NCBI GenBank assembly: GCA_022562455.1
Contig: JADFPG010000012.1
Location: 1-32,824 of the forward strand
DNA length: 32,824 nt
Reading direction: 5' to 3'
From: Fidelibacterota bacterium
GTDB lineage: Bacteria > Fidelibacterota > Marinisomatia > Marinisomatales > SCKK01
The first letter of the stretch is position 1, and each line of letters starts with the position of its first letter. Position numbers and translations under genes: made by a program. The notes under the pieces were generated by a model. That model saw nothing but the letters and a program-made list of their open reading frames with translations, was not told the DNA's origin and ran no database searches. Below, piece by piece: positions 11,299 through 31,276 of this stretch.

Positions 11299-12099
11299 AT
11301 GAGTCCTAAGTATAATCCGAATCAACTTTCTATTTTCCCGGAACTATCCGGTGATATATCTACACCCTCCATTGCAACTATCCCGGAATTCGATATTGCA
11401 CTTGGTAATTTAATTAAAATGAGTGATCTGGGGGCATTCATCCAAATTAATATTCAAGGTATTGACAAATCGTATTCTTTGAATTTAAACGAATTACATA
11501 TCACTTCTGATTTTCTACAAAAAGATACGACACCTGTAACCGTTCACTTATTTTCCCAGGAAATACGAAATGAACTAAAAAAACTGACCTACGAAGTAAA
11601 ATCATTTTTTAATCGTGGGAATTCATTTAACACTTCCTTTGGTTATTTTCTGTTTCGCAGTCATTTTCCCCGTTGGAAAACGTATTTAAAGGAATGTCAG
11701 CAAACGATTAATGATTATATTTCAACTACATTCAGCGGAGGTGTTTATGGGCATTACTTTATAGATCATTTTCAAAAAGGGTATGACTTAATAAAAAAAA
11801 CAGCGGACGTAAGAGCACCATGGGTTTTTAGAGAAAAAATATTATTAAAAGATATTCAGGATCTGCGGCATGAACTTTTAGAAGGTGGCTCCACACTATC
11901 GACCTTAACACCAACAGATTTAGAATATCCTTTCCAATTAATAGTTTTGAAAACAATGCATATTCCTATGGTTCTCCATCAATATCAAGCCCAAGTTCAA
12001 CTTCATTCTGTATTTAAAACCATTCATTTAGATTATCTTGTAGGTATAGAAATCAATACAATTGAAGATGTACGTAAATTAACCAAAAAACTAAAATGA
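11299..12099 (+). CDS. Unknown protein translationally coupled to selD
   Basis: I do not recognise this 266-residue protein. It has no signal peptide, membrane segment or cysteine motif. It starts MSPKYNPNQLSIFPELSGD, has a predicted soluble mixed fold, a basic aromatic middle (about 108-140 with FNRGNSFNTSFGYFLFRSHFPRW) and a Lys-rich C-terminus (KLTKKLK). The start has no obvious Shine-Dalgarno sequence. Its TGA stop overlaps the ATG of selD (ATGA at 12096-12099), the usual sign of one transcript and coupled translation. That placement hints at a role in selenium metabolism or in regulating SelD, but this is inference from position only. Its A+T content is higher than that of the neighbouring metabolic genes. 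Confidence 0.72.
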   Translation: MSPKYNPNQLSIFPELSGDISTPSIATIPEFDIALGNLIKMSDLGAFIQINIQGIDKSYSLNLNELHITSDFLQKDTTPVTVHLFSQEIRNELKKLTYEVKSFFNRGNSFNTSFGYFLFRSHFPRWKTYLKECQQTINDYISTTFSGGVYGHYFIDHFQKGYDLIKKTADVRAPWVFREKILLKDIQDLRHELLEGGSTLSTLTPTDLEYPFQLIVLKTMHIPMVLHQYQAQVQLHSVFKTIHLDYLVGIEINTIEDVRKLTKKLK

Positions 12100-13142
12100 A
12101 AACGAAAGAACAAATTAGACTTACAACACTATCCCACGGCAGCGGTTGAGCGTGTAAAATCGGTCCGAAAGACCTGGCCCAGGTACTGGGTCAACTTAAA
12201 TTGCCACAGGATGATCGTGTAGTCGTTGGCTTTGATGGCGCCGACGATGCTGCCGTTTTGCGTCTGCATGGTGATCGGTACATTGTCCAAACTGTAGATT
12301 TTTTTACTCCAATTGTTGACGACCCATACACATTCGGACAGATTGCTGCAGCCAATTCCATTTCCGACATATATGCCATGGGCGCCACACCGTTATTCGC
12401 ATTGAATATTGTTGGTTTTCCAATCAATGAATTACCAAAATCAATCTTAATTGATATTTTACAAGGGGGAGCAGATAAAGCGGCTGAAGCAGGCATTTCC
12501 ATTGTTGGGGGTCATTCGGTGGATGACCATGAACCGAAATATGGTTTAGTTGTAACCGGTGAGGTTGAGAAAAATAACCTGGTGCGAAATAATGGTGCAC
12601 AACCGGGAGATGCATTGATTTTAACCAAACCCTTAGGGACAGGAATTATTTCCACAGCTATAAAAAAAGAATGCGCTTCGGATAAACAGATTGAAGCAGC
12701 AGTGGAATCCATGACAACTTTAAATAAAGCGGGGGCGGATGCTATGATCGGACTTGAAGTTCATGCGGCTACCGATGTAACCGGGTTTGGGCTATTAGGT
12801 CATTTATTAGAAATGTGTCGAGCCAGTGGTGTATCGGCTGATATCGATTTCAAAAAACTGGAGTTCCTACCCGGGGTGAAAAAACTAGCATCTAATGGCT
12901 TCATACCCGGTGGGTCCAAAAGGAATCTTGAGTTTGTAAAAGAGGAAGTTCGTTTTAATGGTTCACTATCTGAAACAAATCAATTATTGGCAGCAGACGC
13001 TCAAACGTCCGGTGGATTATTAATATCTCTTCCAAATGAAGATGCAGATAAATTTCTTGATATTATTAATACTTCTACATCATTCCCTGCATTCAAGATT
13101 GGAAAGATTACAACAAAAACAGATAAGTTTATTACAATCTGA
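12096..13142 (+). CDS. selD: Selenide, water dikinase (selenophosphate synthetase), Sec-containing
   Basis: Makes selenophosphate from selenide and ATP, the selenium donor for Sec-tRNA. Read from the ATG at 12096 the protein is 348 residues, the normal SelD length, with the in-frame UGA at 12147-12149 decoded as Sec18. The context HGSG-U-ACKIGP aligns with the catalytic loop GSGCGCKI of E. coli SelD, so Sec replaces the catalytic Cys and Lys21 is the catalytic Lys. Downstream are GFDGADDAAV, QTVDFFTPIVDDPYTFGQIAA, NSISDIYAMGATPLFAL and GGHSVDDHEPKYGL, all family motifs. Starting at the TTG at 12201 would remove the active site. A SECIS-like hairpin follows the UGA, and a perfect terminator ends the transcript. 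Sec-containing SelD is an established variant. Confidence 0.95.
12162..12174 (+). promoter_or_regulatory. SECIS-like hairpin of selD
   Basis: GGTC (12162-12165) pairs with GACC (12171-12174) around CGAAA. The loop starts 17 bases after the UGA and has G as its second base; both fit the bacterial SECIS rules (loop about 16-37 bases after UGA, G within the first two loop bases). A second hairpin, CCCAG/CTGGG around GTA at 12178-12190, is an alternative. Confidence 0.6.
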
Positions 13143-13911: not shown

Positions 13912-14223
13912 ATGAGCTATTGGCGAGTTCCACTGGATATTCAAGACATAAAAATTCCGAAGGGTGATATTCATATCATTATTGAGCGGTGCAAGGGGTG
14001 CAAATTTTGTGTTGAATACTGTCCTAGGAATGTTCTGGAAATGTCCACCGATTATAATCCGAAGGGATATCATTATCCTAATGTGATAAAACAGGGCGCC
14101 TGTGTAAACTGCAATCTCTGTGAATTGATTTGCCCGGAATTTTCTATTTACTGTTTAGAAGGCGAGGCGCAACCGCCCGACCCGGACGAAGTGCTTAGAA
14201 AAGGAGGAAACCATGAAAGCTGA
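13912..14223 (+). CDS. korD: Ferredoxin-type delta subunit of 2-oxoacid:ferredoxin oxidoreductase
   Basis: A 103-residue protein with two [4Fe-4S] motifs: CKGCKFCVEYCP (about 27-38) and CVNCNLCELICP (about 64-75). It matches the delta subunit of four-subunit 2-oxoglutarate or related 2-oxoacid:ferredoxin oxidoreductases. That subunit carries electrons from the ThDP-linked beta subunit to free ferredoxin or to a partner complex. Its last codons contain the AGGAGG ribosome binding site of korA and the two genes overlap by 11 bases. It is the first gene of the korDABC-gltD/mvhD-hdrCB-hdrA cluster. Confidence 0.9.
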   Translation: MSYWRVPLDIQDIKIPKGDIHIIIERCKGCKFCVEYCPRNVLEMSTDYNPKGYHYPNVIKQGACVNCNLCELICPEFSIYCLEGEAQPPDPDEVLRKGGNHES

Positions 14224-15373
14224 TCCTATGGGTGTCGCAACAGGAAGCCATTATTTAGATGGTGATCATGCCTGCGCAGAAGGTGCCATTGCCGGCGGCT
14301 GCAGATTCATGGCGGGATATCCTATTACACCTTCCACTGAAGTGGCAGAACGAATAGCAGAACGATTCCCAAAAATAGGTGGTATGTTTATCCAGATGGA
14401 AGATGAGTTAGCCTCCATGGCTGCAGTATCAGGCGCTGTATGGGCAGGGGCAAAATCCATGACTGTCACCTCCGGGCCGGGTTTTTCGCTAATGATGGAA
14501 AATATTGGGCTGGCCGTCATGATGGAAGTTCCCTGTGTCGTTGTCAATGTCCAGCGGGGCGGCCCATCCACCGGTCTGCCTACTCTTACTGCCCAGGCGG
14601 ATATGATGCAGGCCAGATGGGGCTCACATGGTGATTACGAGATAATTGCATTGTCTCCCAATTCTCCACAGGAATGTTTCGATTTAACGATTACAGCCTT
14701 CAATCTTTCAGAAAAATGGCGTGTACCTGTTTTATTCATGATGGATGAATGTGTGGGTCATATGACCGAAAAAGTTATCATCCCAAATGCAGATGAAATT
14801 GAAGTCACTCCGAGAAAATATTACAAAGGGAAAAAAGAATCTTATCGACCTTACAGATTTAATGGATCGAATTCGGTAGCTCCCATGGTCAAAGCAGGGG
14901 ATGGTTATTTTATACACATCACCGGTCTGACCCATGACGAACGGGGTTATCCTGTAATCAATGCCGAAGCCCAGGAAAAAAACGTAAAGCACCTGGTAAA
15001 TAAAATTCTGAAAAATGAGGAAAAAATTCGGATTATTGAAGAGGACCAAGTGGATGGAGCAGATGTGGTGGTTATTTCGTATGGAATCTCTTCCCGTGTA
15101 GCCATGAATGCTGTGGAAGCAGCCAGAAAAAAAGGATTAAAAGTTGGGACATTAAGACTCGTAACTGTTTGGCCCTTCCCTGAAAGCCGAATTCGTGAAC
15201 TGGCAAAATCCGTCAAGGCTTTTGTCGTTCCGGAAATCAATATGGGTCAAATTTCCCTGGAAGTGGAACGCTGTGCACAGGGAAATGCTAAAACAATTCT
15301 TGTACCCCATGCAGGAGGTTGGGTTCATGACCCCACTGACATTTTAAACGCCATCGAGGAAAGTATCGTATGA
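14213..15373 (+). CDS. korA: 2-oxoacid:ferredoxin oxidoreductase, alpha subunit (four-subunit type)
   Basis: The 386-residue alpha chain carries the pyrimidine-binding domain: GYPITPSTEVAERIAERF (about 40-57), MEDELASMAAVSGAVWAG and NVQRGGPSTGLPTLTAQADM (about 111-130). The C-terminal transketolase-like domain contains PEINMGQISLEVER. RGGPSTGLPT is shared with 2-oxoglutarate enzymes, which is why I prefer KOR over pyruvate or indolepyruvate enzymes; the substrate is still inferred. Unlike the KorA at 9228-11075 it has no fused gamma domain. The start overlaps korD and the stop overlaps korB by ATGA. Confidence 0.9.
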   Translation: MKADPMGVATGSHYLDGDHACAEGAIAGGCRFMAGYPITPSTEVAERIAERFPKIGGMFIQMEDELASMAAVSGAVWAGAKSMTVTSGPGFSLMMENIGLAVMMEVPCVVVNVQRGGPSTGLPTLTAQADMMQARWGSHGDYEIIALSPNSPQECFDLTITAFNLSEKWRVPVLFMMDECVGHMTEKVIIPNADEIEVTPRKYYKGKKESYRPYRFNGSNSVAPMVKAGDGYFIHITGLTHDERGYPVINAEAQEKNVKHLVNKILKNEEKIRIIEEDQVDGADVVVISYGISSRVAMNAVEAARKKGLKVGTLRLVTVWPFPESRIRELAKSVKAFVVPEINMGQISLEVERCAQGNAKTILVPHAGGWVHDPTDILNAIEESIV

Positions 15374-16284
15374 GTGAAACCATTACAGATTATACCAATA
15401 AACTGACTATCCCAAAGCCTGAAGAAAATTTTCGGCATCCTATGGAAGCTTACATTCGATCTGAACGGTTTCCCCACATTTGGTGTTCCTCCTGCGGGAT
15501 CGGAACCATTCTCACGGCATATATTAGCGGTCTTCAAAAATCAGGGTTGGACCCTGAAAAGGTAGCTGTTGTTTCAGGAATTGGCTGTTCCGGCCGTGTC
15601 GCCGGATACCTGAGGCTGGATAGTTTTCACAGCACTCATGGCCGGGCTCTTCCATTTGCCACAGGACTCGCATTGGGTAATCCGGAATTGAAGGTCTCAG
15701 TCATCAGTGGAGATGGTGATATTTCTGCCATTGGAGGGAATCATTTCATCCACTCTGCCAGGCGGAACATGAACTTGACCATTATCTGTATCAATAATTT
15801 CACCTACGCTATGACCGGAGGCCAAGCAGGACCCACAACTCCCATAGAAGCCAATTCCTCCACGACACCTTACGGCAGTTATGAGTATCCATTTAACCTG
15901 CCATTTTTGGCTGAATCCTGTGGAGCAGTATACGTGGCTCGATGGACAGCACTTCATATCCGGCGCCTAACCAATGCCATTTCCGAAGCTTTGCTAAAAC
16001 CGGGTTTTTCCTTCATTGAAGTTATTTCTCCCTGTCCCACTCTCTATTCACGGAGAAACCGACTTGGAACCGGATTGGACTCAATGAAATTCTATCACGA
16101 CACTGCCATCATTCAGCACGGCGCAGAAACTCGGGAAGTGGATATTGAATATCAGCAGAAAATCATTGTAGGAAAATTCGTGGACAAGGAAAAACCGACG
16201 TTTACTGAAGCCAGAGACAAATTTTTAAAAAAGAAACTGGGTGACAGGTTCGTACCATACAGGGGGCCAAATCATGGACATTAG
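15370..16284 (+). CDS. korB: 2-oxoacid:ferredoxin oxidoreductase, beta subunit (four-subunit type)
   Basis: The 304-residue ThDP subunit has IWCSSCGIGTIL (about 36-47) and SGIGCSGRVAGYL for the proximal [4Fe-4S] cluster. The ThDP motif is SGDGDISAIGGNHFIHSARRN, followed by CINNFTYAMTGGQAGPTTP. It is clearly diverged from the other KorB (8200-9225), whose equivalent is LFNNRIYGLTKGQYSPTS, so this is a separate enzyme and not a recent duplicate. Its ATG overlaps the korA stop (ATGA), and its end overlaps korC by 11 bases. Confidence 0.9.
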   Translation: MSETITDYTNKLTIPKPEENFRHPMEAYIRSERFPHIWCSSCGIGTILTAYISGLQKSGLDPEKVAVVSGIGCSGRVAGYLRLDSFHSTHGRALPFATGLALGNPELKVSVISGDGDISAIGGNHFIHSARRNMNLTIICINNFTYAMTGGQAGPTTPIEANSSTTPYGSYEYPFNLPFLAESCGAVYVARWTALHIRRLTNAISEALLKPGFSFIEVISPCPTLYSRRNRLGTGLDSMKFYHDTAIIQHGAETREVDIEYQQKIIVGKFVDKEKPTFTEARDKFLKKKLGDRFVPYRGPNHGH

Positions 16285-16855
16285 ATTTTCAGGATTCGGT
16301 GGCCAGGGAATCATAAAATCCGGTACTCTTATCGGTAAAGCAGCTTCTCTTTACGATGATAAATTCGCAACCATGACCCAGAATTTCGGGCCCGAGGCAC
16401 GAGGCGGAGCGTGTTCTGCACAATTAGTTATATCTGAAAAACCAGTTCTTTACCCTTATATCGTTCGTCCGGAAATTCTGGTTAGCATGTCCCAGGAAGC
16501 ATATGAAAAATTTCTTGATGACCTGGTTCCCAATGGCATTCTTCTCATCGATTCAGATCTTGTAAAGCCCCATAATATCCGGAAAGATGTAAACATGTAT
16601 AGTATTTCTTCCACCCGTATTGCCGAGGAAATGGGAAACCGAATTTTCGCAAACGTGGTTATGGTTGGGTTTTTCACTGCCATCACAAATATAGTGGAAC
16701 CGGATGCAGTAAAAAAAGCTCTTCCCGGTTCCGTACCAGAGCGCTTTATCGACAAAAATATAGAAGCTTTCAATAAAGGGTATCAATACGGAATAGATAT
16801 CCTTGAAAAAACGAAAACAAAACAAAAGAAAAAGAAAGAAAAAACAGAAGCTTAA
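16274..16855 (+). CDS. korC: 2-oxoacid:ferredoxin oxidoreductase, gamma subunit
   Basis: The 193-residue gamma chain starts MDIRFSGFGGQGIIKSG and contains FGPEARGGACSAQLVIS (about 37-53) and NVVMVGFFTAITNIV, all family marks. I start it at the ATG at 16274, inside the last codons of korB. An upstream in-frame start at 16241 would add residues unlike the family. The C-terminus ends in a Lys-rich tail (about 25 residues, mostly K with T, Q and E) that looks disordered and is not typical. Confidence 0.9.
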   Translation: MDIRFSGFGGQGIIKSGTLIGKAASLYDDKFATMTQNFGPEARGGACSAQLVISEKPVLYPYIVRPEILVSMSQEAYEKFLDDLVPNGILLIDSDLVKPHNIRKDVNMYSISSTRIAEEMGNRIFANVVMVGFFTAITNIVEPDAVKKALPGSVPERFIDKNIEAFNKGYQYGIDILEKTKTKQKKKKEKTEA

Positions 16856-16895
16856 TTCGGTTTACATAGAGTGGTATATTAAAAAACTGCGCCAA

Positions 16896-19217
16896 ATGAA
16901 CAGATCAAACACATTTACATTTCAAAATAAACCGGACCAATTATATCAGTTAGGCATCACCGAACCGTCCCCATGTACCCTAGCCTGTCCTGCAGGTGTG
17001 AATGTAAAATCCTATGTTTCTCTAATTTCATCAGGGCGTTTCCAGGAAGCCCTGAACGTGGTAAGAGAACGAAATCCCCTCCCCGGGATATGTGGTCGGA
17101 TTTGCTCACATCCTTGTGAAGCAACCTGCAGCAGGAATGAAATAGACTCACCTGTAGCTATCTCCTGGCTGAAGCGCTTCGTGGCAGACTACGAATTGAA
17201 CCATCCCGGAACAAAGCCGAAAAAAATTAAACAAACCCGAAAAGAAAACATTGCTATCATCGGCTCCGGACCAGCGGGACTCACTGCAGCCAACGACTTG
17301 ATCCGACTAGGGTATGGAGTAACTATTTTCGAAGCACTGCAAAAGCCCGGTGGAATGCTTATTACAGGGATTCCATCTTTTCGACTGCCCCGGGATATCG
17401 TAAAAGTGGAAATTGATGCAATAAAAGCACTAGGAGTTAAAATCAAAACCAATAATAAAATTAAAGGGAAAGATGCCATCAAAAAGTTGATGAGCGATGG
17501 ATTTGACACTGTGTTTCTGGCAGTGGGCGCCCATAAAGGGAAAAAACTCCGTATCCCCGGTGAAGATACATCTAGAGGGATTATTAATTGTGTGGACTTT
17601 TCAAATCAGGTGCATCTGGGTACTGCCCCTAACTTGGGGAAAAAAGTAATTGTCATCGGCGGCGGAAATGTTGCGATAGACACGGCCAGGACCGCGCTGC
17701 GTGTCGGGGCGCAGGAGGTTCAGCTTTATTGCCTTGAATCCAGAAAGGAAATGCCGGCCTTTGAACATGAAATTGAGCAAGCGGAAAAGGAAGGAGTTGT
17801 CGTCAATCCTTCCTGGGGACCCAAACAGATCTTAAGCCGGAATGGGAGTGTAACCGGTGTCGAGTTCAGAAACTGCATTTCTGTGTTTGATTCTGAGGGG
17901 CGGTTCAATCCTGCTTACAGCGAGGAGACCAAGTGCGTAAATACCGAGATGGTGATATCTGCTATCGGCCAAGATCTGGATCTGGATTTTCTGGGGAAGG
18001 ATCATAAACTAAAAATAACCAAACGGAATACATTTGAAGTAGATAAGGATACGCTTTCGACTTCCATGAACGGTGTTTTTGCCGGAGGAGATGCTGTCTT
18101 GGGGGCCAGCACTGTTATTGACGCCATTGCTCAAGGTCACATTGCCGCCCGGTCCATTCATCGTTATTTGAATCATAAACCACTGCAACAGGATAAAAGA
18201 ACCGGCTCGCCCCAAGAATGGGAATTCAAGGTGGAACCAACCTTGCATGAAAAATCAAAACGGGCAACAATGCCTATGATGGACATTCCTGGAAGAAAGA
18301 ACAATTTCACAGAAGTGGAATCCGGGTTTGACGAGGCAACCGCCATTGCGGAAGCCAGCCGCTGTCTGCGTTGTGGTCCCTGCAGTGAATGTTTCATTTG
18401 CATGCCGGAATGCGGAAAAGAAGTGGCTTTGATTTCCGGACCAAATGGGCAGGAGGCTTCTGTTTTCCGCATACCCCCTCTATACAAAACCCTGGACCCG
18501 GCTCATTCCCCTTGGGATGGATCTCTGGTAACTGGAAAGAATATAGTACCGGTACGATTGAATGCATTAATTCCTTTTGTGAACGAAACTCTCTGCCGCG
18601 GGTGTGGAGATTGTGTAGATGTCTGTGATTACGATGCGGTGAAACTGATACCTAAAACTGATGAAATTTCTATAGCTAAAATTAACGATGACATCTGCCG
18701 GGCCTGCGGAACCTGTGTAGCCGTTTGTTCTCCAAGCGCCATTATTCCAAGATATTTCAATCAAGTTTGGCTTGACCAAAAATTCAACGCCATGGATCCA
18801 AATAAGAAGAATGTGGTGGTCTTTACCTGCCAGTGGAATGGATCCCATATCGAAGGGGCAGCCTTTCCAGATTTCCAATCAAAAAATACAAATATCCTGT
18901 TTGTCCATTTCATGTGTTCCGGCAGGCTGGAGTCATCTTTCATTTTCCGGGCTTTAAACAAGGGAGCCGACGGAGTATTGGTTACAAGTTGCAGTGCCGG
19001 TGAATGCCATTATGATTTCGGTGTTAGTCAGGCCCAAAAGACCGTGAAGACCACTCGCCAGCTTATTCATCTCCTGGGGTTGGATTCGAAAAGGTTTGCG
19101 TATTCGCAGATCCTGGGGGCAGACCCGGAAGCGTTCATTCAGGCGGTGAATGAATTTATCAAAGCACTTCCATCCAAAGATCAGCCTGAATCTGTGAGTA
19201 AAATCAATGAACCTTAA
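16896..19217 (+). CDS. GltD/NfnB-like NAD(P)H flavoprotein fused to ferredoxin and MvhD domains
   Basis: A 773-residue fusion. About 20-110 is the Cys-rich N-terminal Fe-S domain of glutamate-synthase small subunits (CTLACPAGVNV, GICGRICSHPCEATC). The FAD fold follows with IIGSGPAGL (121-129), then an NAD(P)H fold with VIGGGNVAIDTARTAL (253-268) and GVFAGGDAV (393-401). A cysteine cluster CLRCGPCSECFICMPEC lies at 490-506. Two [4Fe-4S] motifs are CRGCGDCVDVC (567-577) and CRACGTCVAVC (601-611). An MvhD-like domain spans about 639-770 (FTCQWNGSHIEG, MCSGRLES, CSAGECHYDFG). The likely role is moving electrons between NAD(P)H and the Hdr module. I prefer the start at 16896; an in-frame start at 16803 lies inside korC and encodes only Lys-rich sequence. 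No strong ribosome binding site is seen. Confidence 0.85.
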   Translation: MNRSNTFTFQNKPDQLYQLGITEPSPCTLACPAGVNVKSYVSLISSGRFQEALNVVRERNPLPGICGRICSHPCEATCSRNEIDSPVAISWLKRFVADYELNHPGTKPKKIKQTRKENIAIIGSGPAGLTAANDLIRLGYGVTIFEALQKPGGMLITGIPSFRLPRDIVKVEIDAIKALGVKIKTNNKIKGKDAIKKLMSDGFDTVFLAVGAHKGKKLRIPGEDTSRGIINCVDFSNQVHLGTAPNLGKKVIVIGGGNVAIDTARTALRVGAQEVQLYCLESRKEMPAFEHEIEQAEKEGVVVNPSWGPKQILSRNGSVTGVEFRNCISVFDSEGRFNPAYSEETKCVNTEMVISAIGQDLDLDFLGKDHKLKITKRNTFEVDKDTLSTSMNGVFAGGDAVLGASTVIDAIAQGHIAARSIHRYLNHKPLQQDKRTGSPQEWEFKVEPTLHEKSKRATMPMMDIPGRKNNFTEVESGFDEATAIAEASRCLRCGPCSECFICMPECGKEVALISGPNGQEASVFRIPPLYKTLDPAHSPWDGSLVTGKNIVPVRLNALIPFVNETLCRGCGDCVDVCDYDAVKLIPKTDEISIAKINDDICRACGTCVAVCSPSAIIPRYFNQVWLDQKFNAMDPNKKNVVVFTCQWNGSHIEGAAFPDFQSKNTNILFVHFMCSGRLESSFIFRALNKGADGVLVTSCSAGECHYDFGVSQAQKTVKTTRQLIHLLGLDSKRFAYSQILGADPEAFIQAVNEFIKALPSKDQPESVSKINEP

Positions 19218-19234
19218 ATAATGGCGGAAACTCC

Positions 19235-20401
19235 ATGAGTAGTACACTAACAGAATCGATTAAAAAAACCAACGCCTATGCCTGCCTGGAATGTGGAAAA
19301 TGTACCAGTGTCTGCCCTGTTGCCCTTTTCCGATATAACGGTTCTGTGGGAACCAGATTCTCCCCAAGAATGATGCTGACAAAAGCAGTACGTCGGAATT
19401 ATGATGATCTTTTTCATGATTATGATCTATGGAGCTGCCTGACATGCCGGAAGTGCGATTTGTATTGTCCCTCTAATATCCATTACATCGATCTGATACA
19501 ATTTCTCAGATCGAGTGCCACCGATTCAGGGATCGATTGTGGAAAATGTTCCCACTCCGGAGCTCTACAAGCTCTGTCAAGAATTATGACTGCCAAGGAC
19601 TTAAAACCTAACCGCTTAGATTGGGTCACGGAAGATTTGGAGATTTCAACTGACGGAGACACGCTCTATTTCGTGGGGTGTGCCCCCTATTTCGATGCTT
19701 TTTTCACTGATCTCGATCTGTCTGTTTTAGACGCAGCACGAAGCAGCATAGCCATTCTGAACAAATTAGGCATCTCTCCTGTTCTTCTCGCCGATGAACG
19801 ATGTTGTGGTCATGATTTGTTTTGGAATGGTGATGTAGAGACATTCAAGAGACTTGCAGAATACAATGTCTCAGCTATAAAGAATGCGGGAATAAAAACC
19901 ATTTTATTTTCCTGCGCTGAATGCCTGAATGCCTTTAAAAAATTATATCCGGAAAATGGTTTTGCAATCAAAGCAGAATTGAAACATATGAGTCAATTTT
20001 TAGCAGAAAAGATTTCTGCAGGTGAATTGGAATTAGCATCCTCTGACAAAGAGTTAACCTATCACGATCCCTGTCGGTTAGGAAGACATCTTGGCATTTA
20101 TGATGAACCCAGACAGGTTCTCAGTTCAAATAACGACTCCCATTTTTATGAGATGAAACAGAGCGGAAAGAGGTCACTTTGCTGTGGCGTCAGCGCCTGG
20201 ATGAATTGTGATATCACAGCGAAGGCTATTCAGATAGAACGGTTAAATCAGGCAAAGGAAACAGGAGCCGAAGTCTTGGCGGTGGCATGTCCGAAATGCC
20301 AAATTCACCTTATCTGCACCCTAAAAAATGTCCCGTCAAATAAAAATTATGATATTGAGATACGTGATATCTCATCTATTACCTTAGAAAGAATGGAATA
20401 G
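19235..20401 (+). CDS. HdrC-HdrB fusion (heterodisulfide-reductase-like, HdrD type)
   Basis: The 388 residues join an HdrC part with two [4Fe-4S] motifs, CLECGKCTSVCP and CLTCRKCDLYCP (about 18-75), to an HdrB part with two CCG domains. The first is GCAPYF...CCGHD...CAEC and the second DPCRLG...CCGVS...CPKC, with 40/34 and 35/33 residues between the cysteine groups. Both are complete, so both noncubane clusters of HdrB can form. In methanogens this subunit reduces CoM-S-S-CoB; in bacteria the disulfide or other acceptor is usually unknown. It starts 17 bp after the flavoprotein gene and is separated from hdrA by a purine-rich 180-bp spacer. Confidence 0.88.
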   Translation: MSSTLTESIKKTNAYACLECGKCTSVCPVALFRYNGSVGTRFSPRMMLTKAVRRNYDDLFHDYDLWSCLTCRKCDLYCPSNIHYIDLIQFLRSSATDSGIDCGKCSHSGALQALSRIMTAKDLKPNRLDWVTEDLEISTDGDTLYFVGCAPYFDAFFTDLDLSVLDAARSSIAILNKLGISPVLLADERCCGHDLFWNGDVETFKRLAEYNVSAIKNAGIKTILFSCAECLNAFKKLYPENGFAIKAELKHMSQFLAEKISAGELELASSDKELTYHDPCRLGRHLGIYDEPRQVLSSNNDSHFYEMKQSGKRSLCCGVSAWMNCDITAKAIQIERLNQAKETGAEVLAVACPKCQIHLICTLKNVPSNKNYDIEIRDISSITLERME

Positions 20402-20500
20402 AAGAATGAAGAGATGGAAGATGGATGATGGGTGATGGGTGATGGGAAAAGGAGTAATGGAGAAATGGAGATATGGAGTAGTGGAGGAATGGCATAAAGG
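20402..20500 (+). repeat. Purine-rich low-complexity spacer
   Basis: Between hdrCB and hdrA the plus strand is almost all A and G with repeated GATGGGT and ATGGAG units. It includes three GGG runs in GGGTGATGGGTGATGGG. It could be a degenerate microsatellite. A strong AGAGGAG ribosome binding site for hdrA follows at about 20567-20573. Confidence 0.6.
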
Positions 20501-20580
20501 CAAAGTTTGAAGTATGGCAATTTCTCAAAATCAATGAGTGCAATTATTACGACTTCAATAATCAAAGAGGAGAAGAGTGA

Positions 20581-23067
20581 ATGACTAACAATGGTTTGAG
20601 GATCGGCGTGTTTGTTTGTGAATGTGGGTCAAACATTGCCGGATCATTAGACTGCGATGCTGTAAGAGACTATGCTGCAACCCTTCCGGATGTCGTCTGT
20701 GCCGTGAAGAACAGATACACATGTTCGGAACCGGGTCAGAAGGAAATCAAGAAGTACATCAAGGAACACAACCTGAATCGAATTGTTGTTGCTTCCTGCA
20801 CACCAAGAATGCATGAGATAACTTTTCGTAAATGTGTCTCTGAAGTAGGATTGAATCCTTATCTGATGGATATGGCAAACATCCGTGAGCATTGCAGTTG
20901 GACTCATCTTAATAACTGGGACGGCGCCACGGAAAAAGCAAAAGATATTGTGAAAATTACTGTGGCGAGAACCAGACTATTACAACCTCAGACAGAAACT
21001 GAAATTCCTGTCTTGAAAGATGTGCTTGTCATCGGAGGCGGCATTGCAGGCATACAGACATCTCTCGATCTTGCCGATGCAGGTTATCAGGTCCATTTGG
21101 TAGAAAAGGAGGCATCCATTGGTGGGATCATGGCGAGGTTGGACAAGACCTTTCCCACTATGGATTGTTCCATATGAATACTCGGACCCAAGATGATGGA
21201 TGTCGGTCGACATCCCCGAGTTAACCTTCTGACCTTCAGCGAAATCGAAGACATTTCCGGATACATCGGAAACTTTCAGGTCACTGTCCGGAAAAAAGTA
21301 CGTTTTGTGGACGAAGCTGAATGCAATGCCTGTGCGGAATGTGAAAAAGTGTGTCCCATGGTGGTTCCCGATGAATTTCAACTTGGCTTTTCATCCCGGA
21401 AAGCCATTTATATGCCATTCCCTCAAGCGGTCCCCTCCGTCTATATCTTAAATGAAAGTGACTGTCTGGGTCATAATCCAATTGCCTGTGGCAAATGTGC
21501 TGATGTCTGTGAAAAGGATTGTATCGATTTCGATATGAAAGACGAAATTATTGAATTTGAAGTGGGAGCGGTTATTGTGGCGACAGGGATGGAGGTTTAC
21601 GACCCCACAGAGTTGGACGAATATGGTTATACTCGATATGAAAATGTCATTACCAGTATGGAGTTAGAGAGGCTTATCTCTGCCGGAGGTCCCACCGAGG
21701 GTCATTTCATTCGTCCCACCGATCAAAATACACCCAAGCGGATTGCTTTTATTCAATGTGTGGGTTCCCGTACTCTCAACGGCAAAGGAAACCCATATTG
21801 TAGCACAATTTGTTGCATGAACACAATAAAAAACAGCTTGTTATTAAAGGATCACAATCCTGACATAGATATTAAAGTCTTTTATATGGATATTCGAGCA
21901 TATGGCAAAGGATTTGAAGATCTCTATCAACGCAGCAAACAGGCAGGTGTCCAATACATTCGTGGAATTCCTGGAGAAGCTTATGAAAACCCTACTACAA
22001 AGAACATTTCTCTTACCGTTGAAGATACTATCACAGGTTCTCTTGAAGAACATGAATTCGATTTGGTGGTTTTGGCTTTGGGAGTAATTCCTCGACATGA
22101 CACCGAGTTTATCCGGAAGAACCTTTCTTTATCAAAGACTGAAGACGGGTTTCTCATGGAGTCACACCCAAAACTCAGGCCCGTAGATGCCCCGACAGGT
22201 GGAGTCTTTTTTGCCGGGTGTGTGGAATCACCCAAGGATATCAAAGAGAGCGTCACCCAAGCCGGAGCAGCAGCGGCACGGGCACAGATTTTACTGAATG
22301 CAGGGAAAATCAGTGTGGAAGCCATCACTTCAGAATGCCTGACTGACTTTTGCACCGGTTGTGGAGTTTGTGTGAAAGTTTGCCCCTTTAATGCAATCAC
22401 AGGCGGTGATGCCAAGCTAAAGATACCTGTGGAGATGATTGAGGCAGCCTGCAAGGGATGTGGTACTTGTGCAGCCGAATGTAACTTTGATGCCATCCTA
22501 ATGAGGCATTTTGAAGACGCCCAGATAATTGCTCAGATTGATGCTGTACTTGATGAAAACCCGATGGAAAAAATTATTGTGTTTGCTTGCAACTGGTGTT
22601 CCTATGCAGGAGCAGACCTTGCTGGGCTTTCCCGGCTTCAGTATCCTCTGAGTCAACGAGTAATTCGTACCATGTGCAGCGGTCGAGTAGATTCAAAATT
22701 CATACTTCATGCATTTGAAAATGGCGCCCCCATCGTGCTTGTGTCCGGTTGTCATTTCGCTGATTGCCATTACATCGATGCGAATCGGTGGACACAAAAA
22801 CGTGTAGACAAACTGTGGGATAAGTTAGAAAAATTGGGAATCCGTCCTGAAAGACTTCAGTTAGAATGGATCAGCGCTGCAGAAGGTCAAAAGTGGGTAA
22901 AAACAATGAATGAGCTTGAGGAGATGAGAATACAGGTCACCCAAGAAGAAATAGAACATACTATAAAAATGCTGAAAGAAGACAGAGACAGGGCGGAACG
23001 AAAATCAAAAGCAAAGAAATCCCTGACGGATTTGATAAAAAAAGAACCGGTCAAAGCAATTGCATAG
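20581..23067 (+). CDS. hdrA: HdrA-MvhD fusion, selenocysteine-containing flavin-bifurcating subunit
   Basis: HdrA holds the FAD that bifurcates electrons in heterodisulfide reductase complexes. Two ORFs split by UGA at 21175-21177 are in the same frame and join as one 828-residue protein with Sec199. The context FPTMDCSI-U-ILGPKM matches the invariant HdrA motif DCSxCILxPKM, with Sec replacing Cys. The N-terminal domain has VFVCECG. FAD binding is by VIGGGIAGIQTSLDLADAGY. Ferredoxin motifs are CNACAECEKVC (248-258) and CGKCADVCEKDC (303-314). The HdrA-specific cluster is C393...C407-STI-CC411/412. C-terminal ferredoxin motifs lie at 591-601 and 624-634. A fused MvhD domain (about 665-800) has ACNWCSYAGADLAG, MCSGRVDS and SGCHFADCHY, followed by a charged tail. 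It is the last large gene of the cluster. Sec-HdrA is known in methanococci and some anaerobic bacteria. Confidence 0.95.
21180..21221 (+). promoter_or_regulatory. SECIS element of hdrA
   Basis: Two stacked stems follow the UGA. The lower stem is ACTCGG (21180-21185) with CCGAGT (21216-21221). A 12-base 5' internal loop leads to the upper stem GGATGTC (21198-21204) with GACATCC (21209-21215), closed by the loop GGTC. The loop starts 28 bases after the UGA and opens with G, as bacterial SECIS elements require for SelB binding. Thirteen perfect pairs inside a coding region are unlikely by chance. Confidence 0.9.
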
Positions 23068-23247: not shown

Positions 23248-23412
23248 ATGGAAGAAGCTAATTTCAAATGTTTGCGTTGCGGTCATGAATACAGAGGACC
23301 CTATGATAGAAAAGTCCCAATAGAGCGGACTTGTCCACAATGTAACAGTAACAGTGTCCGTAGAATCAAGAAAATGCCGTTGACCCGGATTTCTCGCAAA
23401 AGGTCGTTATGA
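23248..23412 (+). CDS. Small zinc-ribbon protein
   Basis: A 54-residue protein with CLRCGHEY (Cys9, Cys12) and TCPQCNS (Cys29, Cys32), the four-cysteine zinc ribbon of FmdB/rubredoxin-like small proteins, then a basic C-terminus (RRIKKMPLTRISRKRS). No function can be assigned. It lies 180 bp after hdrA and after the putative terminator, so it may be separately transcribed. Similar small zinc ribbons do occur beside redox gene clusters. It is unlikely to be random because both CxxC pairs are well spaced and codon use matches its neighbours. Confidence 0.7.
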   Translation: MEEANFKCLRCGHEYRGPYDRKVPIERTCPQCNSNSVRRIKKMPLTRISRKRSL

Positions 23413-30298: not shown

Positions 30299-31276
30299 TT
30301 ACAGTACCATATGGAACAACTTACTTGTTAGAGGATTCCTCTTCATTCTCATCATCGGCTGAGTCATCATCCACATTCTCATTTTCATCCCGAAACTTGG
30401 ACCTTTCTCACCAGTATTTAAACCGCTCTGTTTATTTTCTTCTTTTTTTCTCTTTTTAACTACTTTCGAGTCGCCCTTGTTTTTACCCGGAGCTGTATTC
30501 TTTGATTCATCGGTAGATTCAACTTCGGTTACATCCTCCACATTTGCCTTTGCTTTTTCATCTGATTCCGTTTCCTTTTCACCTTCACTGACTTCAGATT
30601 TCTTGCCTTGTTCATCCTCAGATTTATCTAACTCCTTCTTTTCCACAGCCTCCGAAACTTCCTTACTTGGTTCAGTATCCTCAACTACTTCAGGTTCCAC
30701 CTCTTTCTTAGGCTTTTCTGCCGATTCGCTTTCTATACTCTCAGATTCACGATCGTTTTCTTCGGAAGTTTTTTCTGAGTCAACTACGGGCTCTTTCAAT
30801 TTTTCATCAAAATCCAACTCGGTTGTCTCCGTCTTTGCTTCAACTTGTTTCTCTGCTTCTACAGTTTCAGAAAGATCTGCCTCTGATATAGCTTGGGTTT
30901 TCACTAACTCCACTGCCAACTTCAGTTTTTCAGCTTCCTTTTGCTTTTCGCGCTCTTCTCTGTCTAATAACCACTTCTGAAGCTCAAGATCTATTGCCTG
31001 TTCATCAAGCCCCTGGCGAATCATGTGCCATTTGTATGACAGACCAGCCTTCTTCATCAGGTTCTTTACAGTGAACGTAGGTTGGGCGCCGAGCTCAAGC
31101 CAATGAATTATTCGATCCTCTTTAAGAGAAAAGTTTTCCTTATTTTTTATTGGGTCATACCAGCCCACTTCTTCTATTGGGGCACCGTCACGCCTTTTTC
31201 TCGAATCTATAACAACCACCCTGAAAAATGGTCTATTCCTTCTTCCTATCCGTTTCAGTCTGATTTTCGTTGCCAC
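30299..31276 (-). CDS. rpsP: 30S ribosomal protein S16 with very long charged C-terminal extension
   Basis: Residues 1-85 are a normal S16 (MATKIRLKRIGRRNRPFFRVVVIDSRKRRDG, EEVGWYDPIKN, LGAQPTFTVKNLMKKAGL). Usual S16 is about 80-110 residues; here it runs to 325. Residues 100-290 are a highly charged Glu/Lys/Ser low-complexity tail, probably disordered. The last 30 residues change abruptly to Met-rich, neutral sequence (GMKMRMWMMTQPMMRMKR). One base shifted, the same DNA encodes an acidic ending DENENVDDDSADDENEEES and stops at 30321, suggesting a one-base loss in the GGG run at 30389-30391. The core function is assembly of the 30S body. Bacteroidota and relatives also have extended S16, but this tail is among the longer ones I would expect. 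Confidence 0.9.
   Translation of the reverse strand: MATKIRLKRIGRRNRPFFRVVVIDSRKRRDGAPIEEVGWYDPIKNKENFSLKEDRIIHWLELGAQPTFTVKNLMKKAGLSYKWHMIRQGLDEQAIDLELQKWLLDREEREKQKEAEKLKLAVELVKTQAISEADLSETVEAEKQVEAKTETTELDFDEKLKEPVVDSEKTSEENDRESESIESESAEKPKKEVEPEVVEDTEPSKEVSEAVEKKELDKSEDEQGKKSEVSEGEKETESDEKAKANVEDVTEVESTDESKNTAPGKNKGDSKVVKKRKKEENKQSGLNTGEKGPSFGMKMRMWMMTQPMMRMKRNPLTSKLFHMVL

Follow-up and report, generated by a model that had tools for sequence, protein, structure and literature searches.

Which partners exchange electrons with a 2-oxoacid:ferredoxin oxidoreductase (Kor) whose genes stand in line with those of a heterodisulfide reductase (Hdr)? The question is raised by seven plus-strand genes at positions 13912-23067 of contig JADFPG010000012.1 from a Fidelibacterota bacterium (assembly GCA_022562455.1); the window analysed is the whole 32,824-nucleotide stretch, contig C191 of this genome. 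Genome comparison indicates that the Kor–GltD–Hdr cluster is a real, co-inherited unit in at least eight phyla, and we propose, with a probability of about 0.52, that its products make up one soluble enzyme, a reversible three-port electron-bifurcating and -confurcating system. The genome comprises 201 contigs and is 93.7% complete, which bounds all genome-wide negatives reported below.

Organization of the Kor–GltD–Hdr cluster

The first four genes overlap by 11, 4 and 11 bases, and those after korC are separated by gaps of 40, 17 and 179 bases, in gene order; a sequence-only reading of the window had described seven codirectional genes, the first four overlapping, and its coordinates hold exactly. 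Domain calls, made with Pfam and NCBIfam profiles at family cut-offs, also bear out its claim of a complete four-subunit 2-oxoacid oxidoreductase: a delta subunit with two [4Fe-4S] clusters (KorD, 13912-14223; Pfam Fer4_7; best NCBIfam model OGOR_delta at 69 bits, short of the 125 needed for that family), an alpha subunit (KorA, 14213-15373; POR_N and PFOR_II; PRK08659 at 575 bits against a cut-off of 411), a thiamine diphosphate-binding beta subunit (KorB, 15370-16284; TPP_enzyme_C, 2.6e-30) and a gamma subunit (KorC, 16274-16855; POR, PF01558, 1.1e-36; TIGR02175 above cut-off). The korC reading frame opens at GTG 16241, and we place its start at the ATG at 16274. The GltD-type flavoprotein and the MvhD that the same reading had listed are both present, as domains of one fused 773-residue protein (16896-19217, start ATG 16896; Fer4_20 and Pyr_redox_2, Fer4, FlpD), a putative NAD(P)H port and HdrA adapter whose MvhD/FlpD domain (18813-19169) was found with PF02662 in a whole-genome search and aligned to MvhD chains.

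The Hdr core is likewise complete, as had been claimed. HdrC and HdrB form a single 388-residue, HdrD/TfrB-like protein (19235-20401; Fer4_8, CCG twice), which carries the two [4Fe-4S] clusters and two complete CCG motifs (C-CC-CxxC) of HdrBC-type proteins. Its CCG cysteines (C149, C190, C191, C227 and C230; C280, C316, C317, C352 and C355) are invariant across 15 sequences, and HdrCB should therefore be catalytically equipped. Membership of TfrB itself was rejected, at 149 bits against a cut-off of 385. HdrA (20581-23067, 828 residues when read through an internal UGA) scores 1176.6 bits with NF040770, above the cut-off of 1100, and ends in a second MvhD/FlpD domain (22573-22923; PF02662, 158 bits), placing it with HdrA2 or type Ia HdrA; it aligns end to end with HdrA of structure 5odc and keeps the ferredoxin-like domains. 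Scans for promoters and terminators returned no enrichment over shuffled sequence.

Conservation and co-inheritance across phyla

Scanning the genome collection with an alignment of HdrCB yielded 80 loci from many phyla. The same gene order recurs in at least 14 genomes of Neomarinimicrobiota, the phylum to which named relatives assign this genome, and Kor, an FlpD-bearing flavoprotein, HdrCB and HdrA2-FlpD are consecutive in eight phyla (Neomarinimicrobiota, KSB1, Zixibacteria, WOR-3, Cloacimonadota, Gemmatimonadota, Eisenbacteria and Chloroflexota), an order that rules out chance adjacency. Gene order confined to one lineage had been named beforehand as grounds for abandoning the proposal, a refutation that fails here. 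Departures from the pattern include one Cloacimonadota locus (L074) in which GltD-FlpD precedes Kor and a deltaproteobacterial locus (L090) with Kor, GltD-FlpD and HdrCB and no intact hdrA.

Linkage was quantified in the 43 loci with enough flanking sequence, 31 of which contain HdrA2 at ≥58% identity and form the informative set. KorA lies upstream in 27 of these 31, against 2 of the 12 loci without this HdrA2; two pairs of loci (L038/L053 and L040/L058) are contigs counted twice, and removal of the duplicates leaves 25 of 29. One locus scored as KorA-negative (L109) has KorB and KorC, with the end of KorA truncated by the locus edge. Across 245 Neomarinimicrobiota genomes, KorA falls into two identity groups, about 75-94% and ≤65%, and the high-identity form is found in 17 of the 18 genomes with a full-length GltD-FlpD protein. 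Wherever the contig continues, GltD or Hdr genes follow korC, except in one scaffold with N runs at the junction (G184). In a tree of 59 KorA sequences, all 43 Hdr-linked members lie on one side of a branch with 100/99 support, the root not being fixed. Pairwise distances of KorA, KorB, KorC, HdrCB and HdrA correlate (r 0.64-0.78), which shared host descent alone could partly explain.

Several loci carry additional Kor genes. Tandem korAB pairs occur in seven Hdr-linked clusters (L062, L065, L071, L074, L078, L080 and L113), their extra KorA copies forming a clade of their own (100/100), and at least one WOR-3 locus (L062) has, in addition to the fusion, standalone HdrC- and HdrB-like genes. 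The metagenome-assembled genome under study holds a second korDABC (L168; G000:C171:6826-10197) whose KorA is 80% identical and after which the contig ends within the first part of a GltD gene (92% over 77 residues); the bin contains only one pair of FlpD domains, and this copy may reflect either duplication or contamination. In another locus (L047, genome G214), a related GltD-HdrCB-HdrA set is preceded by a KorD-like gene and no other Kor subunit; its neighbours include a gene resembling methylmalonyl-CoA mutase and one for a B12-binding protein, and its catalytic partner may be a different one.

A conserved selenocysteine in HdrA

The UGA that interrupts the hdrA frame (21175-21177, in MDCSI-U-ILGPKMMD) recurs within DCSI-U-ILGPK in every readable orthologue. 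Among 60 distinct 48-base stretches 3' of this codon, a common apical hairpin of a selenocysteine insertion sequence (SECIS) element (GGAUGUC-GGUC-GACAUCC, 21198-21215) keeps its pairs in 95-100% of cases and its GGUC loop in 54 of 60, and one pair varies on both sides in a compensatory manner (U-A 41, U-G 12, C-G 7). Folded as a single sequence, the hairpin outperforms shuffled versions by a small margin (z -1.7); the weight of the case lies in its conservation. The genome also has tRNA-Sec, above its cut-off, and SelB. Because the UGA is conserved, the SECIS element covaries and the decoding machinery is present, all features of bacterial selenoproteins, we read the codon as selenocysteine, and a true stop or a pseudogene is ruled out on the same grounds. 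The selenocysteine aligns with C197 of 5odc HdrA. Five hdrA genes (L047, L074, L080, L081 and L113) have two in-frame UGAs three codons apart, giving D-U-A-I-U (UxxU) in place of DCSIU.

The variable flavoprotein slot

The position between KorC and HdrCB is filled by one of three FlpD-bearing protein types: a GltD protein, as in the window, an HdrA-GltD-HdrA chain, or an HdrA-like protein that lacks GltD. The constant core is thus Kor, an FlpD adapter, HdrCB and HdrA2(Sec)-FlpD. In sequence and fold, the solved structures closest to the GltD module are NfnABC, StnABC and Nfn large subunits, from enzymes in which GltD-type modules bind NAD(P)(H).

Within the window's fusion protein, GltD residues ~220-370 share 28-60% identity with their nearest orthologues, against mostly 80-93% in the flanks. 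The motif YRR(S/T) is kept in all homologues in which it was found, except the window protein, which has YCLES, and one other (L121). By these identities the NAD(P)-binding domain (17538-18005) looks to have been replaced by recombination, which may have switched the cofactor from NADPH to NADH. An AlphaFold model of the fusion, built from 12 sequences, was of moderate confidence (pLDDT 70, pTM 0.59) and uninformative on domain packing or partners.

A proposed three-port mechanism

MvhD is the point of electron entry in HdrABC-MvhAGD; the FAD of HdrA splits the electrons, and HdrB and ferredoxin receive them (PMC6019823). Homology to that complex and to the Nfn/Stn enzymes underlies our assignment of three ports, and the domain anatomy fits a machine with low-, middle- and high-potential branches. 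The HdrA FAD would be the bifurcating site serving all three. NAD(P)H would enter or leave at middle potential through GltD and the fused MvhD/FlpD; HdrCB, with its two non-cubane clusters, would act at high potential on a disulfide/dithiol or similar partner; and KorD and KorABC would occupy the low-potential port in place of free ferredoxin. Run oxidatively, the enzyme would convert 2-oxoglutarate to succinyl-CoA and CO2 and confurcate these electrons with those of the HdrB partner to NAD(P)H. In reverse, the enzyme would bifurcate the electrons of NAD(P)H between the HdrB partner and the reductive carboxylation of succinyl-CoA. The physical complex, the bifurcation, the substrate and the direction are all things that we infer.

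Substrate and direction were considered from the genomic setting. The Kor subunits fall below cut-off in the 2-oxoglutarate-specific NCBIfam models. In relatives, kor is immediately preceded by sucC, sucD or both (L069, L081, L091, L092, L113, L117 and L131); genes for citrate synthase and malate dehydrogenase are found downstream in L038, L041 and L048, as is that for aconitase in L125, and one for citrate synthase sits within the cluster in L072. These neighbours point towards 2-oxoglutarate as the likely substrate. The other strand of the window encodes a two-subunit 2-oxoglutarate oxidoreductase (OGOR)-like pair, fumarase and citrate synthase. The sequence-only reading had seen no hydrogenase or formate dehydrogenase, the usual Hdr donors: the NiFe and FeFe hydrogenase families have no match in the genome, the ground on which hydrogenase was rejected as a hidden donor, and formate dehydrogenase is absent from the cluster, no genome-wide search for it having been made. 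No heme-copper oxidase match was found genome-wide, and coupling through Rnf was rejected, as no RnfC scored above cut-off. Sequence cannot reveal direction; given that the window encodes citrate synthase and fumarase and that hydrogenase has no match, the oxidative direction seems somewhat more likely in this organism.

Weighing alternative explanations

The idea of a 2-oxoacid-linked Hdr supercomplex, with which the sequence-only reading began, gains from the co-inheritance of the genes, the fitting domains and the neighbours from the tricarboxylic acid (TCA) cycle; its NAD(P)H partner turns out not to be invariable, since in some relatives (L081, L095, L101, L108 and L171) an HdrA-like protein with FlpD replaces GltD and NAD(P)H is thus not a universal partner. 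That substitution weighs against the three-port enzyme as we describe it, as do the 179-base gap 5' of hdrA, which leaves a single transcript uncertain, and the HdrB side: DsrC was rejected as its partner, the family having no match in the genome, and coenzyme M/coenzyme B (CoM/CoB) is unlikely. Some of these points would suit neighbours that never join into a fixed complex, with Kor reducing free ferredoxin, a separate GltD/HdrA2/HdrCB enzyme drawing on that ferredoxin together with NAD(P)H and an HdrB partner, and the linkage reflecting joint regulation. Free ferredoxin is indeed the usual acceptor of Kor enzymes, and the differing middle component, the gap before hdrA and the ferredoxin-like domains retained in HdrA all agree with such an arrangement. 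A fixed order across phyla and a Hdr-linked Kor clade of its own, however, exceed what shared regulation usually needs, and we regard separate enzymes as unlikely.

Less probable again is a non-bifurcating, NAD(P)-linked 2-oxoglutarate dehydrogenase, in which GltD passes Kor electrons to NAD(P)+, the role ascribed to PadH in phenylglyoxylate dehydrogenase, and electrons exchanged with a thiol pool travel through Hdr as a side branch. GltD-type subunits do occur with Kor-type enzymes elsewhere, and NCBIfam has an NADH-dependent PadEFGHI family, whose models score 24-78 bits here against cut-offs of 150-700. Yet GltD is fused to MvhD, the HdrA adapter, and to no Kor subunit, and HdrA retains a bifurcating-type architecture. 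A machine working chiefly in the reductive direction, in which NAD(P)H bifurcation drives the formation of 2-oxoglutarate from succinyl-CoA within a reverse or reversed oxidative TCA cycle, has been proposed for the kor/flx-hdr cluster of Escarpia and Riftia symbionts, which holds ATP citrate lyase (PMC6315080, PMC11636981). No ATP citrate lyase appears among the neighbours examined here, and those found (citrate synthase, sucCD, aconitase and malate dehydrogenase) suit either direction; we judge a mainly reductive role to be quite improbable. The reversible three-port enzyme stands as our preferred reading. The broader notion, that Kor has been permanently built into a Sec-Hdr bifurcating complex to give a monophyletic, multi-phylum class of TCA enzyme that dispenses with free ferredoxin, uses a disulfide or other high-potential partner and could run either way near equilibrium, is one we advance tentatively.

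Neighbouring genes

Directly 3' of hdrA, a 54-residue zinc-ribbon protein (23248-23412, plus strand; TIGR02605-like, below cut-off) is kept across phyla, its gene being present in 29 of the 31 HdrA2 loci; it is perhaps an assembly factor or a small redox protein. Outside the enzyme on the other side lies selD (12096-13142, plus strand; TIGR00476, 419 bits), itself with an in-frame UGA (12147-12149) and retained as a neighbour in several relatives. A 266-residue protein without a Pfam match (11299-12099) adjoins selD upstream of kor in five further loci (L034, L170, L173, L175 and L176). Farther away, on the minus strand, a ribosomal protein S16 reading frame (30299-31276) has a long acidic, lysine-rich C-terminal extension.

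Relation to known systems

If the proposal is correct, the very-low-potential step between 2-oxoglutarate and succinyl-CoA is coupled directly to bifurcation across many uncultured phyla; the energy balance ascribed to their TCA cycles would then change, and the step could be reversed at little cost. It also raises the question of what HdrB-like subunits reduce or oxidize when a bacterium lacks CoM/CoB and when, as in this genome, DsrC has no match either. The cluster is well supported as a genomic unit, its enzymatic role being proposed. The kor/flx-hdr idea, HdrA2-MvhD fusions and GltD-HdrA fusions are already known; in the open-access literature, most subscription papers being outside our coverage, we found no description of a kor-gltD/flpD-hdrCB-hdrA2(Sec) cluster or its spread, kor/flx-hdr being the one related case that came up.

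Among characterized complexes, that of class II benzoyl-CoA reductase (Bam) likewise brings together HdrA-, HdrD- and MvhD-like proteins, an NADH module and a catalytic unit working at low potential; the catalytic unit here would be Kor instead of the tungsten protein BamB. Among solved structures, the bifurcating transhydrogenases NfnABC and StnABC come nearest to the GltD portion, whereas our cluster has FlpD and no NuoE/F-type subunits. HdrABC-MvhAGD and the Hdr-formate dehydrogenase (Fdh) complex of methanogens (5odc, 7bkb) share HdrA, aligned here over its full length, HdrC and MvhD homologues; in the present cluster GltD replaces hydrogenase or Fdh, and the low-potential partner is apparently Kor. 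HdrA2B2C2 of Methanosarcina acetivorans, for which bifurcation was measured with F420H2 (PMC5296606), similarly has HdrA of type Ia fused to MvhD, but here HdrA contains selenocysteine, HdrC and HdrB are fused, Kor and GltD are linked, and no CoM/CoB is expected. HdrL, or type III HdrA, has GltD inserted in HdrA (PMC2702500, PMC12054007) and thus also joins GltD to Hdr with MvhD; HdrL-like proteins fill the same slot in some relatives, whereas the window protein is GltD-Fer4-FlpD, has no HdrA part and falls outside that type.

Closest in concept are Escarpia and Riftia symbionts and Thioflavicoccus mobilis, in which korABCD is interspersed with flxABCD-hdrABC and a direct complex feeding OGOR has been proposed (PMC6315080, PMC11636981). 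Both arrangements cluster four-subunit OGOR genes, putative in our case, with an NADH-linked Hdr module. Theirs, however, comprises FlxABCD with aclAB and tfrAB, whereas the cluster described here has no domains of the NADH dehydrogenase-type FlxABC subunits, combines GltD-FlpD with an HdrCB fusion and a Sec-HdrA2-FlpD, and occurs in mostly uncultured lineages.

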